Positions 3,543-8,736 of a stretch of 8,736 bases of DNA are shown piece after piece. Under the pieces are notes generated by a model. The model worked only from the letters and a program-made list of their open reading frames with translations, was not told the DNA's origin and ran no database searches. The DNA comes from an uncultured Ignavibacteriales bacterium (lineage in GTDB: Bacteria > Bacteroidota > Ignavibacteria > Ignavibacteriales > Ignavibacteriaceae), in the NCBI GenBank assembly GCA_913053915.1, contig CAJXGP010000058.1, positions 1 through 8,736 on the forward strand, written 5' to 3'. The first letter of the stretch is position 1; each line of letters begins with the position of its first letter. Made by a program: the position numbers and the translations under genes.

Positions 3543-5438
<1,896 letters not shown>

Positions 5439-5448
<10 letters not shown>

Positions 5449-5567
5449 AACCGGCATTCATAATAATTCCGAATCAGGAAAAATTGTTACCAACTAAAAT
5501 ATTTCGGGAAAAAATAGCCATGACAATTTTTGATACAATAGAAAAATTTTATGAGGAATATAATTAA
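5439..5567 (+). other. Out-of-frame continuation of the small exported protein
   Basis: Read in the -1 frame relative to the ATG at 5251, this stretch encodes 42 residues (LLVEPAFIIIPNQEKLL, then KIFREKIAMTIFDTIEK) and ends in a TAA at 5565-5567 that shares its last base with the kinase start (TAATG). There is no good start codon or ribosome-binding site for it alone. The exact junction with the kinase argues that it is the true 3' end of the gene at 5251. Confidence 0.5.
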
Positions 5568-6781
5568 TGAAGATGTTAGGAGGACCGAGATCCTTTCATA
5601 TTAAGATTTTACTTCTGTTTATTGCTATAATTATTGCAGGAGGTACACTCTATTATACCCAAAATTTAGTTGAACATCTTCAGACTAAAGAAAGACAAAT
5701 ACTCCAATTATATGCAAGAGGAATTGAATATGTTGCAAACACTTCATCTCAAAATACAGATATCACCTTTCTTTTCGATAATATAATTAAACCAATCGAT
5801 TTTCCATTAATTCTTACCGATGCTAATGATAATGTTAATATAAACAACAGTAAGGAAGATATTAGAAATATTGATTATGATACCACAATGTCCGGAAAAG
5901 AATTACAGGAATTTTTTGCAAAAAAGATAAAAGAAATGGACAAACTGCATCCTCCTTTATTAGTAACATATCAAGATTCGGTTATACTAACGAAAATTCA
6001 CTACGGTGACTCAAATTTAATTACTCAATTGAAGTACTATCCATATTTTCAAATTATTATTGCTGCTTTATTTATAATATTAGGTTACATCGGATTCAGC
6101 AATATTAAAAAAAGCGAGCAAAGTAATATTTGGGTAGGCATGGCAAAAGAAACGGCACATCAATTTGGTACACCGATTTCCAGTTTAATGGGATGGCTTG
6201 AAATGTTAAAATTGCATTTTGATGATCCGGATAAAGTTATAGACATTACCGAAGAAATAAACAATGATGTTGAAAAATTAAATAAGATTACTTATAGATT
6301 TTCAAAAATAGGCGCCGCACCAGAATTAAAACCATACATAGTTTATAATGTAATTAAAAATGTAGTTGAATATTTTCAAAGAAGGCTACCACAATTGGGA
6401 AAGGGTGTTGAATTAACACTCAATGGAGATCAAAAATCAAAAGTAAAATTAAATTCTGAGCTTTTTGAATGGGTTATAGAAAATTTAATTAAGAATGCAC
6501 TCGATGCAATAAATCATAAAAATGGGAAAATATATATAAATGTTTCTGCCGGTAAAAAAACTGTTGAAATAGAAATCTCGGATAATGGGAAAGGAATTGA
6601 TATAAAAAGGCGCAAAGATGTCTTTCGCCCAGGTTACAGCACAAAAAGAAGGGGATGGGGTTTAGGCCTGAGTCTTTCGAAAAGGATAATTGAAGGATAT
6701 CACAAGGGGAAAATATTTGTGAAAAGCTCAGTACCGGATGAAGGTACAACTTTTAAAATCACTCTCGATAAATATATCTAA
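5567..6781 (+). CDS. Membrane sensor histidine kinase without HAMP domain
   Basis: A 404-residue two-component sensor kinase. The first membrane segment is at about 11-30, an extracytoplasmic sensor region at 31-157, and the second membrane segment at about 158-178. Only about 20 residues then separate the membrane from the phospho-acceptor His198 in KETAHQFGTPISSLMGWLEML, so no HAMP linker is present. The HQFGTP H-box replaces the common HELRTP. The ATPase domain has the N-box NLIKNALDA (306-314), the G1 box DNGKGI (339-344), and FRPGYSTKRRGWGLGLSLSK (353-372) combining F and G2 boxes. It ends in a normal EGTTFKITL strand. Its ATG overlaps the stop of the preceding frame (TAATG), so it is probably translated with purA and the small protein. 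There is no response regulator nearby; ligand and target are unknown. Confidence 0.92.
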   Translation: MKMLGGPRSFHIKILLLFIAIIIAGGTLYYTQNLVEHLQTKERQILQLYARGIEYVANTSSQNTDITFLFDNIIKPIDFPLILTDANDNVNINNSKEDIRNIDYDTTMSGKELQEFFAKKIKEMDKLHPPLLVTYQDSVILTKIHYGDSNLITQLKYYPYFQIIIAALFIILGYIGFSNIKKSEQSNIWVGMAKETAHQFGTPISSLMGWLEMLKLHFDDPDKVIDITEEINNDVEKLNKITYRFSKIGAAPELKPYIVYNVIKNVVEYFQRRLPQLGKGVELTLNGDQKSKVKLNSELFEWVIENLIKNALDAINHKNGKIYINVSAGKKTVEIEISDNGKGIDIKRRKDVFRPGYSTKRRGWGLGLSLSKRIIEGYHKGKIFVKSSVPDEGTTFKITLDKYI

Positions 6782-6825: not shown

Positions 6826-7770
6826 TCAGCTCATCGCCAGCATCCGTTCAATCGGTTTTAAGGCAAGCTTCATCAAGTTAGGCTCTAAAGTTATCTGCGG
6901 CTCTTTATTTTTCATACAAAAAAACAATTTCTCCATTGTACTTAGTTTCATATACGGGCATTCATTACAACTACAATTTTTGTCAGGTGGGGCTGGAATA
7001 AAGTACTTGTCAGGCATAATTTTTTGCATTTGATGAATAATTCCTACTTCAGTTGCAACTATATAACTACTCGAATCATCTTCCCGCACAAACTTTAAAA
7101 GCTTGCTGGTTGATCCAATAAAATCTGCACTGTTCAGAATTACATCTTCGCATTCGGGATGAGCAATAATTTTACTACCGGGATATTGAACCAGCAGATC
7201 GATTATTTTTCTTTCGCTAAAGGTTTCATGCACTATACATGTACCTTCCCAAAGCAGCATATCTCTACCGGTTTTTTTTATTAAATATTTACCGAGATTT
7301 CTATCCGGGGAAAATAATATGGGCTGTTCTTCAGGAATTTGATTAATTATTTTTTCGGCATTGCTTGAAGTACATATTATATCGCTCAATGATTTAACTG
7401 CAGCCGAACAATTTATATAAGTAATTGCCAAATGATCAGGATGTTTTTTCCTGAAGTTTTTAAAAAGAGGCGCCGGACAACTATCTGCCAAAGAACAACC
7501 GGCTTCAAGATCCGGTAGTAAAACAAGTTTATTCGGATTTAATATTTTAGCCGTCTCAACCATAAAATGGACTCCGGCAAAAACTATTACATCCGCATCA
7601 GTAGCTTTTGCTTTTCTGGCTAACTCTAAGCTATCACCGACAAAATCTGCAATATCTTGTATTTCGGATTCTTGATAATAGTGCGCTAATATAACTGCAT
7701 TAAGTTCTTTTTTTAATCTGATAATTTCTTTTTCTAGATCTACCTGTACATCAATTTCAAAATCCAACAT
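6826..7770 (-). CDS. nadA: Quinolinate synthase A
   Basis: Condenses iminoaspartate with dihydroxyacetone phosphate to quinolinate, in the cytoplasm, for de novo NAD synthesis. The enzyme carries a [4Fe-4S] cluster. The 314-residue product has normal length for the shorter NadA class. The three expected cluster ligands are visible: Cys92 in [10 protein letters not shown], Cys178 in EGTCIVHE, and Cys271 in [10 protein letters not shown]. The substrate-binding AHYYQ (29-33), GDSLELA (45-51), HPEC (204-207) and ATEVG (239-243) motifs are present. AGGAGT lies about 7 bases before the ATG, which fixes the start. nadB and nadC are not in the window. It converges with the kinase gene, with 44 bases between the two stops and no clear terminator. 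A palindrome and a candidate promoter lie just upstream (7800-7864). Confidence 0.97.
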
Positions 7771-7799: not shown

Positions 7800-7827
7800 A
7801 TAATACAAAAAGTAATAAAATTGTCTC
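7800..7827 (-). promoter_or_regulatory. Candidate nadA promoter
   Basis: On the minus strand GAGACA (7827-7822) is separated by 16 bases from TATTAT (7805-7800), which matches the sigma-70 consensus at 4 of 6 and 5 of 6 positions. It would start transcription near 7793 and give a leader of about 20 bases containing the AGGAGT site. The -35 hexamer overlaps one arm of the palindrome at 7824-7864. In AT-rich DNA such matches are common, so this is tentative. Confidence 0.3.
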
Positions 7828-7864
7828 ATAATAATTAAACTAAAAAAAATTTATTATTATGAGA
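7824..7864. repeat. Perfect 12-bp inverted repeat upstream of nadA
   Basis: TCTCATAATAAT (7824-7835) and ATTATTATGAGA (7853-7864) match perfectly around a 17-base A-rich loop. It lies 54 bases before the nadA start and overlaps the candidate -35. It could be a pair of operator half-sites for an NAD-responsive regulator, or a terminator read from either side, since A and T runs lie within the loop. Which of these applies cannot be told from one copy. Confidence 0.5.
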
Positions 7865-7908
7865 TGCAGGGCAATGTTCGTAGAAGCTGTTTTCAACAAT
7901 TTTAACTT

Positions 7909-7924
7909 TGGCATATAAATTGAT
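7909..7924 (+). promoter_or_regulatory. Sigma-54-like -24/-12 promoter, copy 1
   Basis: TGGCAT (7909-7914), five bases, then TTGA (7920-7923) keeps the exact spacing of the sigma-54 consensus TGGCAC-N5-TTGC. The final C of the -12 element is A. The predicted start lies near 7931-7936, exactly where the 27-bp block shared with copy 2 begins. The same element recurs at 8310. The spacing and duplication are seen; use by RpoN is inferred, and no RpoN activator is in the window. Confidence 0.45.
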
Positions 7925-7932
7925 ATATAAGA

Positions 7933-8062
7933 GATGAAAATAGAAAATAGTTTTAAGCATATATCTCCCCAAAATTAACTACCGGGCTTTACTTCAAAGT
8001 CCGGTAGCATACCTTCTAACCCAATTAGTTACAAACATTAATATAAATTAATTGGTTTGTTT
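7933..8062 (+). ncRNA. Candidate small RNA, copy 1 (two hairpins)
   Basis: Predicted transcript of about 130 nt. It opens with a 27-base block (7935-7961, beginning TGAAAATAG and ending AAGCATA) identical to that at 8336-8362, followed by the C-rich CTCCCC (7965-7970). The first hairpin pairs 7979-7990 (CTACCGGGCTTT) with 7996-8007 (AAAGTCCGGTAG), including one G-U pair and a 5-base loop. Then TTAGTTACAAA (8025-8035), shared with copy 2, leads into a second hairpin: ACAAAC-ATTAAT (8031-8042) with ATTAAT-TG-GTTTGT (8047-8060), followed by TTTAAAA, a weak terminator tail. There is no ORF of note inside. I know no family with this layout. The RNA call is inferred from promoter, conserved 5' end and hairpins. 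Confidence 0.45.
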
Positions 8063-8309
8063 AAAAAACCAAAACACTCGCAGTTTCATTATTACAAAAT
8101 TTGAAATTTATCAGATTTTCAAGTTCTTTCAGATGACCGTTCCTAATTTACCGGAGAATGACTTTAATAGCCCGGATTCATAAAATATTACAATGGCTTT
8201 GAAGCAAACCTGACACGTAATAATCACTTCTTACATGTAATTTTTACCGGTTATTTTAACTTTCTCAAATTAAATCTTGTGAAACGGTTAATTTTCTAAG
8301 TTTTTTTAA

Positions 8310-8325
8310 TGGCACATAATTTGAT
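8310..8325 (+). promoter_or_regulatory. Sigma-54-like -24/-12 promoter, copy 2
   Basis: TGGCAC (8310-8315), five bases, then TTGA (8321-8324): a full match to the -24 half, correct spacing, and one mismatch in the -12 half. It aligns without gaps with copy 1 from the promoter through the shared 27-bp block. The predicted start is near 8333-8336 (GGGT). A T run (8301-8307) lies just upstream. Confidence 0.5.
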
Positions 8326-8333
8326 ACTTATAG

Positions 8334-8428
8334 GGTGAAAATAGAAAATAGTTTTAAGCATAGCACTCCCTCCATTATTAGTTACAAAGACCTGTCGGAT
8401 GCTCCCTCAGTCGACAGGTCTTTCCTCT
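8334..8428 (+). ncRNA. Candidate small RNA, copy 2 (one hairpin, C-rich loop)
   Basis: Predicted transcript of about 95 nt. It begins with the same 27-base block as copy 1 (8336-8362), then CTCCCTCC (8366-8373), then TTAGTTACAAA (8378-8388), which runs into a perfect 12-bp stem: AAAGACCTGTCG (8386-8397) with CGACAGGTCTTT (8412-8423). The 14-base loop carries a second CTCCCTC (8402-8408). The tail CCTCTTTAAAC is only moderately U-rich. Unlike copy 1, it has no extra hairpin between the C-rich motif and the terminator-like stem. CTCCC-type segments are complementary to GGGAG-like ribosome-binding sites, so an antisense role on mRNAs is plausible but unproven. I do not recognise the family. Confidence 0.5.
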
Positions 8429-8736
8429 TTAAACATTTTATAAAATTATTTGTTAAAAGCCCCCGATAACTTAATTTTTTATGTCATTTTGATTGGAGTG
8501 AATATTTTAATTTATCCTGGTAATTTTTCAATCATTCAGTTCCTTCGAAACGGCACTTGCATCTTTTCCTTCATATTGAGCAAAAAAGGAATTCCCTTAT
8601 ACCATAATAAATCTATCTGTATTTTGGTATTCACAAAAGACCTACCGACAAATGAAGCACGGATAAAATTAGAATAGAACCATTGCTAATAGGTAGTAAA
8701 ATGAATGATTTTGAAATATAATTGCGATACACCGGA

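Follow-up and report, generated by a model that had tools for sequence, protein, structure and literature searches.

A syntenic family of predicted, paired small RNA genes with sigma-54-like promoters in Ignavibacteriales, and their putative pairing with microprotein leaders

Results

Two similar units beside nadA

The DNA considered in this study (the window) is a stretch of 8,736 nt, contig CAJXGP010000058.1, from an uncultured bacterium of the Ignavibacteriales. A Pfam check of its proteins covered a histidine kinase, NadA, PurA, a STAS protein, and a protein of the sigma-70 type. The gene for the membrane histidine kinase (5567..6781, forward strand; PF02518, E 9e-22) and nadA (6826..7770, reverse strand; PF02445, E 5.9e-118) are conserved neighbors of the feature of interest, judged by synteny. 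That feature consists of two similar units on the forward strand, which I will call copies A and B. They align without gaps over 61 nt (7909-7969 with 8310-8370), with 82% identity and an offset of 401 bp.

Each unit begins with TGGCA-N6-TTGA, present as TGGCATATAAATTGA in copy A (7909..7923) and TGGCACATAATTTGA in copy B (8310..8324). If these are numbered as sigma-54 promoters, with the second G of the GG pair at -24, then +1 falls at 7935 and 8336, in both cases the first base of an identical 27-bp block, TGAAAATAGAAAATAGTTTTAAGCATA (7935..7961 and 8336..8362). A 23-mer from this block, with up to three mismatches allowed, finds two sites in the window, the units themselves, as against an expectation of 0.00 from shuffled sequences. 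A C-rich motif beginning with CTCCC comes next, CTCCCC in copy A (7965..7970) and CTCCCTCC in copy B (8366..8373). It is succeeded by a 3' hairpin, at 7979..8007 in copy A, where it is of the family type and lies within a match to the covariance model R2 (see below), and at 8386..8423 in copy B, where it has perfect 12-bp arms, CTCCCTC in its loop, and the covariation of the family. After the hairpin comes CCTCTTT in copy B, the counterpart in copy A (CATACCTTCTA) being a weak T-tract. Each unit thus appears from its sequence to possess what a trans-acting sRNA gene should have, a promoter of its own and a 3' terminator hairpin, the T-run of copy A being weak.

The predicted sRNAs run from +1 to approximate ends at 8019 (copy A, 7935..8019) and 8431 (copy B, 8336..8431). 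R2 matches copy A at 7934-8019 (54.4 bits, E 3.1e-9) and copy B at 8335-8431 (63.2 bits, E 6.9e-11), copy B having been included in the training set of the model and copy A excluded. I read a third match in the window (3908-4012, E 0.009) as the hairpin 3' of the STAS gene.

The first-pass annotation had described a repeat of two units sharing, in the same order, a sigma-54-like element, the 27-bp block exactly at the predicted 5' end, and CTCCC, with a diverged but gapless stretch from promoter to block, and all of this holds. It had also described a shared TTAGTTACAAA leading into a terminator hairpin. The sharing is real, but it is not a trait of the family, for TTAGTTACAAA is found in two of 57 distinct units, both those of the window, and not in the 55 others; nor does it lead into the terminator of copy A, since the family-type hairpin (7979-8007) precedes it. 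ATTAGTTACAAA is likewise common to both units (8024-8035 and 8377-8388), and the sharing of ATTAGTTACAAA and TTAGTTACAAA is possibly a trace of local gene conversion.

Distribution, structure, and synteny of the family

An exact internal 22-mer of the block occurs at nine loci in the species-genome collection, eight of them in metagenome-assembled genomes (MAGs) of Ignavibacteriales/Bacteroidetes and one in Acaryochloris. Three of the eight MAGs have tandem pairs of exact matches, and in another three (L001, L003, L006) the second copy has diverged. The Acaryochloris match (L004) has no promoter in the stretch inspected and was rejected as a chance match, and a 19-mer match from IMG/VR (L010) was rejected as a family unit for the same lack in the stretch inspected. 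Plasmids searched with 7880-8460 gave no match.

A wider view is provided by two models. With a threshold of E<=0.01, R1, a sequence-only model of promoter and block, finds matches in 87 of the order's 164 genomes, its weakest matches probably being due to chance. Inspection of the loci brought out a distantly related subfamily, whose block is shorter (GAAATAGTTTAAGCATAGCATCCCTCC) and precedes GACAC and a hairpin with CCCTC in its loop. R2, the full-length covariance model, matches 31 of 391 class-sampled genomes at E<=0.001; all 31 belong to the order's 164, so that there is no match among the genomes new in the class sample. In 40 further genomes of the order, R2 matches 23 at E<=0.01.

The full-length alignment of 24 sequences contains a single helix, 96.3% of its cells being paired. 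Two-sided changes are seen in seven of the nine pairs of the 3' hairpin, equalled on these measures by none of 500 shuffles, and sliding the helix out of register drops the pairing to 23-41%. One of five measures of covariation, the occurrence of further pair types, does not rise above the shuffles (304/500).

Rfam 15 offers no credible match in the window, and at ten related loci (those of eight relatives and two target loci) it matches only miRNA models, which I take to be chance, in accord with the earlier view that this RNA family is apparently undescribed. The check proposed at that time, a covariance-model search for many copies with compensatory stem changes, was run and gave a positive result, within one order and in seven of nine pairs. 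The further claim, that these are paralogous sRNA genes under selection at the 5' end, gains support from the predicted homologues, the stem covariation, the synteny, and a block complementary to mRNA leaders.

Synteny was assessed at 25 loci. In 23 of them the sRNA is flanked on one side by aroB, which in two of these is 1.4-1.7 kb away; the window stops short of aroB, and the stretch available for L207 shows none. On the opposite side lie nadA and/or a histidine kinase gene in 22 loci (the exceptions are L208, L211, and L212), nadA itself being present in 13. The usual arrangement is nadA/kinase, sRNA, aroB.

Promoters and upstream elements

Thirteen units, found without regard to the promoter and aligned by the block, all have TGGCA at -28 and TTG at -17 relative to the 22-mer. 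The letters between and after these two elements vary, and an invariant run opens at the base that would be +1 for sigma-54; the 27-nt block as a whole is nearly invariant among relatives. CCC stands close behind the block in all 13 (L004, which is no unit, excluded). Larger sets of 51 and 57 distinct units were gathered by an expression demanding GGC, TTG, and a C-rich run, and so the presence of these features in them is not evidence. The spacer is 6 in all 57, though the expression allowed 6 or 7, and the base at -12 is A (TTGA) in 28, T (TTGT) in 24, G (TTGG) in three, and C (TTGC) in two. Set beside the -24/-12 element TGG-N10-TTGC, the units show GG and TTG at a fixed distance (13/13) but seldom the textbook C at -12 (2/57).

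All eight genomes with the long block encode RpoN, as do 158 of the 164 genomes of the order, so that its presence does not discriminate across the order. In the eight genomes, TGGCAYNNNNNTTGA occurs 79 times (the sRNA genes counted), versus 47 times for the reversed pattern. An identical TGGCATATCAATTGA is found 5' of fliL in six of the eight (L256, L258, L263, L284, L285, L286), 18-28 nt from the start codon, and a similar form 5' of flgB in at least five (L248, L255, L266, L273, L277). One FliL was scanned (PF03748), and one FlgB, which lies above the TIGR01396 cut-off and has no Pfam match; the remainder of each were identified by likeness. With TGGCA-N6-TTGA near the start codons of fliL and flgB, these MAGs have an apparent sigma-54 flagellar regulon.

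Upstream of copy B lies a palindrome of the form GTAA-N3-TTAC (GTAATTTTTAC; 8237..8247, forward strand), -73 from TGGCA, which is a candidate activator site. The same form is present in 26 of the 51 units, at -63 to -84 of TGGCA, compared to a mean of 0.16 and a maximum of 2 in shuffled sequences, a comparison that is partly post hoc because the N3 spacing was taken from the same sequences; the form GTAA-N5-TTAC occurs in none of the 51. Copy A is preceded instead by TGTCTCA (7822..7828, forward strand), -87 from TGGCA and some 50 nt 5' of the start codon of nadA. Within 160 nt upstream, TGTCTCA is present in 10 of the 51 units, at -85 to -95 (shuffles: mean 0.36, maximum 3). The box may serve either sRNA A or the divergently oriented nadA, in the latter case perhaps as an operator. 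An imperfect inverted repeat, TCTCATAATAATTAA / TTTATTATTATGAGA (7824-7864), lies between nadA and sRNA A and overlaps the box. From the presence of GTAA-N3-TTAC before B and TGTCTCA before A, the two copies seem to be differently controlled, unless TGTCTCA serves nadA.

Complementarity to the leaders of microprotein genes

A 25-mer of the block, searched with three mismatches in the eight genomes, finds the sRNA genes and two antisense matches. Both of the latter are leaders, with TTAAAACTATTTTCTATTTT just 5' of GGAGGG and a start codon. An 18-nt core of the complement, with GGAGG on its 3' side, occurs in three of the 164 genomes (G003, G005, G006), all among the eight with the long block. 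The complementary runs in these leaders are 20-21 nt, and all precede genes of one microprotein family, encoding homologues of 35-41 aa that each have a single hydrophobic stretch. Two of the three proteins, when scanned, had no Pfam or NCBIfam match near the cut-off, and the third, compared with 5.8 billion proteins, matched nothing but an unnamed entry identical to it.

A profile of the three proteins finds many paralogues, often in tandem. They form a multi-copy family of about 35-45 aa with a single transmembrane (TM) segment, resembling MDLFSLxxSAxxIxxGSxFVxIGGSYIAYRIRKK (L066-L081, L096-L114). Two loci (L034, L035) have, 3' of the target ORF, a hairpin with a loop that contains CCCTCC, complementary to GGAGGG. 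A different kind of gene, L160 in G002, encodes an apparently secreted repeat protein of 121 aa, cut by the contig end; it has its own sigma-54-like promoter, and its leader carries GCTTAAAAAAACTATTTTC, an interrupted complement of the sRNA.

The profile listing extends to 152 of the 164 genomes at E<=1, with many weak matches in long frames, and leaders were chosen from it by score and by a small open frame, the gene being picked before its leader was read. The leaders of G022, G024, and G030, where no sRNA was identified, and L115, which has no ORF, were left out. Duplex energies were calculated for 43 leaders, in a comparison that included a spurious G018 unit. For Watson-Crick runs that unit was absent, L108 (a leader of 52 nt) was dropped, and L113 was added, giving three leaders found by complementarity and 40 that were not. 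No use was made of copy A of G061.

Paired with the sRNA of their own genome, six of the 43 leaders have duplex energies that none of 200 shuffles equalled: G031 L091, G061 L076, those of G003 and G006, and G005 L067 and L111. The longest Watson-Crick run reaches at least 11 nt in eight of the 40 leaders picked by homology, as against a mean of 0.13 and a maximum of 2 in 300 rounds of shuffling; neither related genomes nor paralogous leaders are independent samples. The remaining 32 have no such run with the sRNA of their own genome. Strong leaders are found in six of the 16 genomes tested (G003, G005, G006, G031, G061, G064) and not in G001, G002, G004, G007, G008, G018, G020, G021, or G023, while the G029 leader has a run of 9 nt (13 with G-U). 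By both counts, targeting is patchy.

In some genomes the complement in the leader follows changes in the sequence of the sRNA. The G061 sRNA has TAGTTATTAAGCA in place of the TAGTTTTAAGC of most genomes, and the G061 leaders hold the matching complement: the run in L099 is 13 nt with its own variant sRNA and does not exceed 8 nt with the sRNA of any of 15 other genomes, and L076 pairs over 19 nt with its own, with one G-U. For the variant TAGTTATAAAGC of G031, the matching sequences are TTTATAACTATTTT in L114 and GGTGCTATGCTTT in L091. Such complementarity, long in eight of the 40 leaders (a number reached in none of the 300 shuffles) and covarying in G061, is what a trans-acting sRNA should show.

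In the clade with the short block, ATGCTTAAACTATTTC lies 5' of a STAS-domain gene in G040, G043, and G044 (the domain was scanned for G043). GCTTAAACTATTTC lies 5' of a gene that I read as lipoprotein-like (it has no Pfam match) in G042, G045, and G063; the case of G063 is weakened by the failure of an R2 search to find an sRNA there. Outside the sRNA gene, exact GCTTAAACTATTTC occurs 12 times in the six genomes G040-G045 and 7 times in the other 158, while its reversed control occurs 3 times in G040-G045 and about 53 times in all 164. Recognizable genes have five of the 12 in their leaders, with one further doubtful case; G041 accounts for three, which are near-identical repeats, and no start codon is near any of the others. 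Eighteen other short-block genomes with an sRNA match have no GCTTAAACTATTTC outside the sRNA gene, and a genome-wide search for the short target pattern ACTATTTT-N2-28-GGAGGG showed no enrichment over the reversed control.

Discussion

A proposed mechanism

The family, the form of its promoter, the covariation of its hairpin, its synteny, and the covarying complementarity can be read in the sequences compared. The mechanism that I infer from them adds transcription, the identity of an activator, a direction of control, and a role for the C-rich module. As a whole, the best explanation, and in my judgment a very probable one, is that these are sibling sRNAs, putatively independent of Hfq and driven by sigma-54, that act at ribosome-binding sites. 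Copies A (from 7935) and B (from 8336) would give rise to trans-acting regulatory RNAs of about 85-97 nt, with TGGCA-N6-TTG as the promoter from which sigma-54 RNA polymerase would transcribe each. For copy B, activation probably goes through a protein that binds the palindrome about 100 bp 5' of its start. Without Hfq, the single-stranded 5' end, UGAAAAUAGAAAAUAGUUUUAAGCA, would pair with the leaders of mRNAs that encode single-TM microproteins, as a rule 5-22 nt to the 5' side of the Shine-Dalgarno (SD) site, most likely blocking the loading of ribosomes, and the 3' hairpin would terminate and protect the sRNA. The window's own genome presumably carries such a microprotein target as well.

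The C-rich stretch and the C-rich loop of the hairpin would constitute a second module for pairing, one that can bind GGAGGG. They are complementary to that sequence but cannot pair with the SD within the collinear duplex that the 5' block forms, and the module may act on other mRNAs or belong to a further sRNA molecule.

Independence from Hfq is suggested by the distribution of the protein. Hfq (PF17209) was found in none of 21 genomes searched, with the control positive in five named genomes, which implies that pairing is either Hfq-independent or mediated by another protein.

A more far-reaching scheme may be entertained, though I consider it unlikely in its entirety: an Hfq-free RNA arm of a sigma-54 regulon (flagellar and membrane), in which siblings A (under TGTCTCA) and B (under GTAA-N3-TTAC) would jointly tune membrane microproteins, the 5' block of one sRNA molecule lying before the SD and the C-rich arm of a second on it, with sRNA and target coevolving clade by clade.

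Alternative explanations

Repression of initiation is the simplest reading of the position of the pairing sites, which lie inside or beside the stretch needed by the 30S subunit: in the 11 strong cases, the distance from site to SD is 5-22 nt in ten and 42 nt in one. The same 11 sites, however, are all upstream of the SD rather than on it, as might also be expected if the sRNAs activate their targets, for example by exposing the SD or by shielding the mRNA at its 5' end. Predicted folds of the 11 target leaders leave the SD accessible to very different degrees (0.01 to 0.81 unpaired), so that activation may apply as well as repression. The SD is largely paired in some leaders (0.12 unpaired in G003, 0.04 and 0.14 in G031, 0.01 in G061), in keeping with activation, but open in others (0.69 and 0.72 in G005, 0.80 and 0.81 in G064), and I regard activation as a minority prospect, worth keeping in mind.

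Readings that dispense with a base-pairing RNA fare worse. A block that is A-rich, repeats GAAAATA, and begins at the predicted +1 might serve chiefly for the binding of a protein to DNA or RNA, for example within the first part to be transcribed, with the same site inverted in the leader complements. A fixed site would stay put along the sRNA, however, and the complements track different parts of it (TAGTTATTAAGCA in G061; AAAATAGTTATAAA and AAAGCATAGCACC in separate leaders of G031), making this improbable. That the block encodes a short peptide is more improbable still: in copy A an ATG starts an open frame of 14 codons (MKIENSFKH..., by eye) and copy B begins with GTG, but only 20 of 57 units have a start codon in the 26-nt stretch surrounding the start of the block, and 11 of 57 an ORF of at least 15 codons. 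Moreover, block lengths in relatives differ by numbers that are not multiples of three, and third codon positions are no more variable than the first two. Finally, two like units spaced 401 bp apart could suggest a mobile or repetitive element duplicated in tandem. The conserved synteny speaks against a scattered element, the locus being fixed by aroB in 23 of 25 cases, and the 25-mer, with up to three mismatches, finds one locus in each of eight genomes, its two extra matches being the antisense leaders. I give this last idea almost no credence.

Comparison with known small RNAs

Base-pairing sRNAs are best known from bacteria that possess Hfq. In the open-access journal literature, I found none describing sRNAs of Ignavibacteria or Ignavibacteriales among the matches listed, and a search joining sigma-54, sRNA, Bacteroidetes, and Shine-Dalgarno led, among the matches listed, to Flavobacterium only. 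The main texts of two surveys of new bacterial RNAs, searched by term, do not contain Ignavibacteri-, Melioribacter, or aroB.

The Qrr sRNAs of Vibrio are controlled by sigma-54 and act on the leaders of mRNAs. Like the family considered here they are multi-copy siblings, and the promoter here is, by its sequence, of a sigma-54-like form, with the C at -12 mostly missing. Qrr sRNAs require Hfq, however, the gene for which was found in 0 of 21 genomes here, and no Qrr model matches the window (E<=1) or ten related loci (E<=0.1). A title on LuxO and sigma-54 is among those cited in the excerpts of PMC12559287, and Qrr copies are distal according to excerpts of PMC4211561, whereas the copies here are adjacent, at nadA-aroB.

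OmrA and OmrB of the enterobacteria are closer in arrangement, being tandem siblings with a common 5' pairing region or seed, as copies A and B appear to be. They have a strict need for Hfq. Their control, in the passages available, is by EnvZ and its regulator, the present units having a sigma-54-like promoter and a histidine kinase gene nearby, and those passages have them found partly through binding to Hfq, the protein found in 0 of 21 genomes here. No covariance model of theirs in Rfam matches the window or the ten related loci.

Sibling sRNAs are also represented by the alphaR8 group of Caulobacter (SisA-D) and by AbcR1/AbcR2, both from another phylum and of other sequence. According to passages of PMC12559287, SisA employs a conserved 10-mer to pair upstream of a start codon, and Hfq was used in the assays. 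Rfp18 of Flavobacterium belongs to the same broad phylum and is predicted to pair with mRNA, but it does so by its third stem-loop and with protease targets, and the passages of PMC9723704 make no mention of a sigma-54 promoter.

Compared with these systems, the present family offers, in a group for which no sRNA paper was among the matches listed, a promoter class, a fixed locus, compensatory changes in a stem, and candidate targets that track the sRNA. It may tie sigma-54 to membrane microproteins, two scanned members of which are unnamed by Pfam and NCBIfam. It would provide a directly testable pair of sRNA and target independent of Hfq, and in copies A and B a naturally occurring contrast between sibling sRNAs whose upstream control seems to differ.
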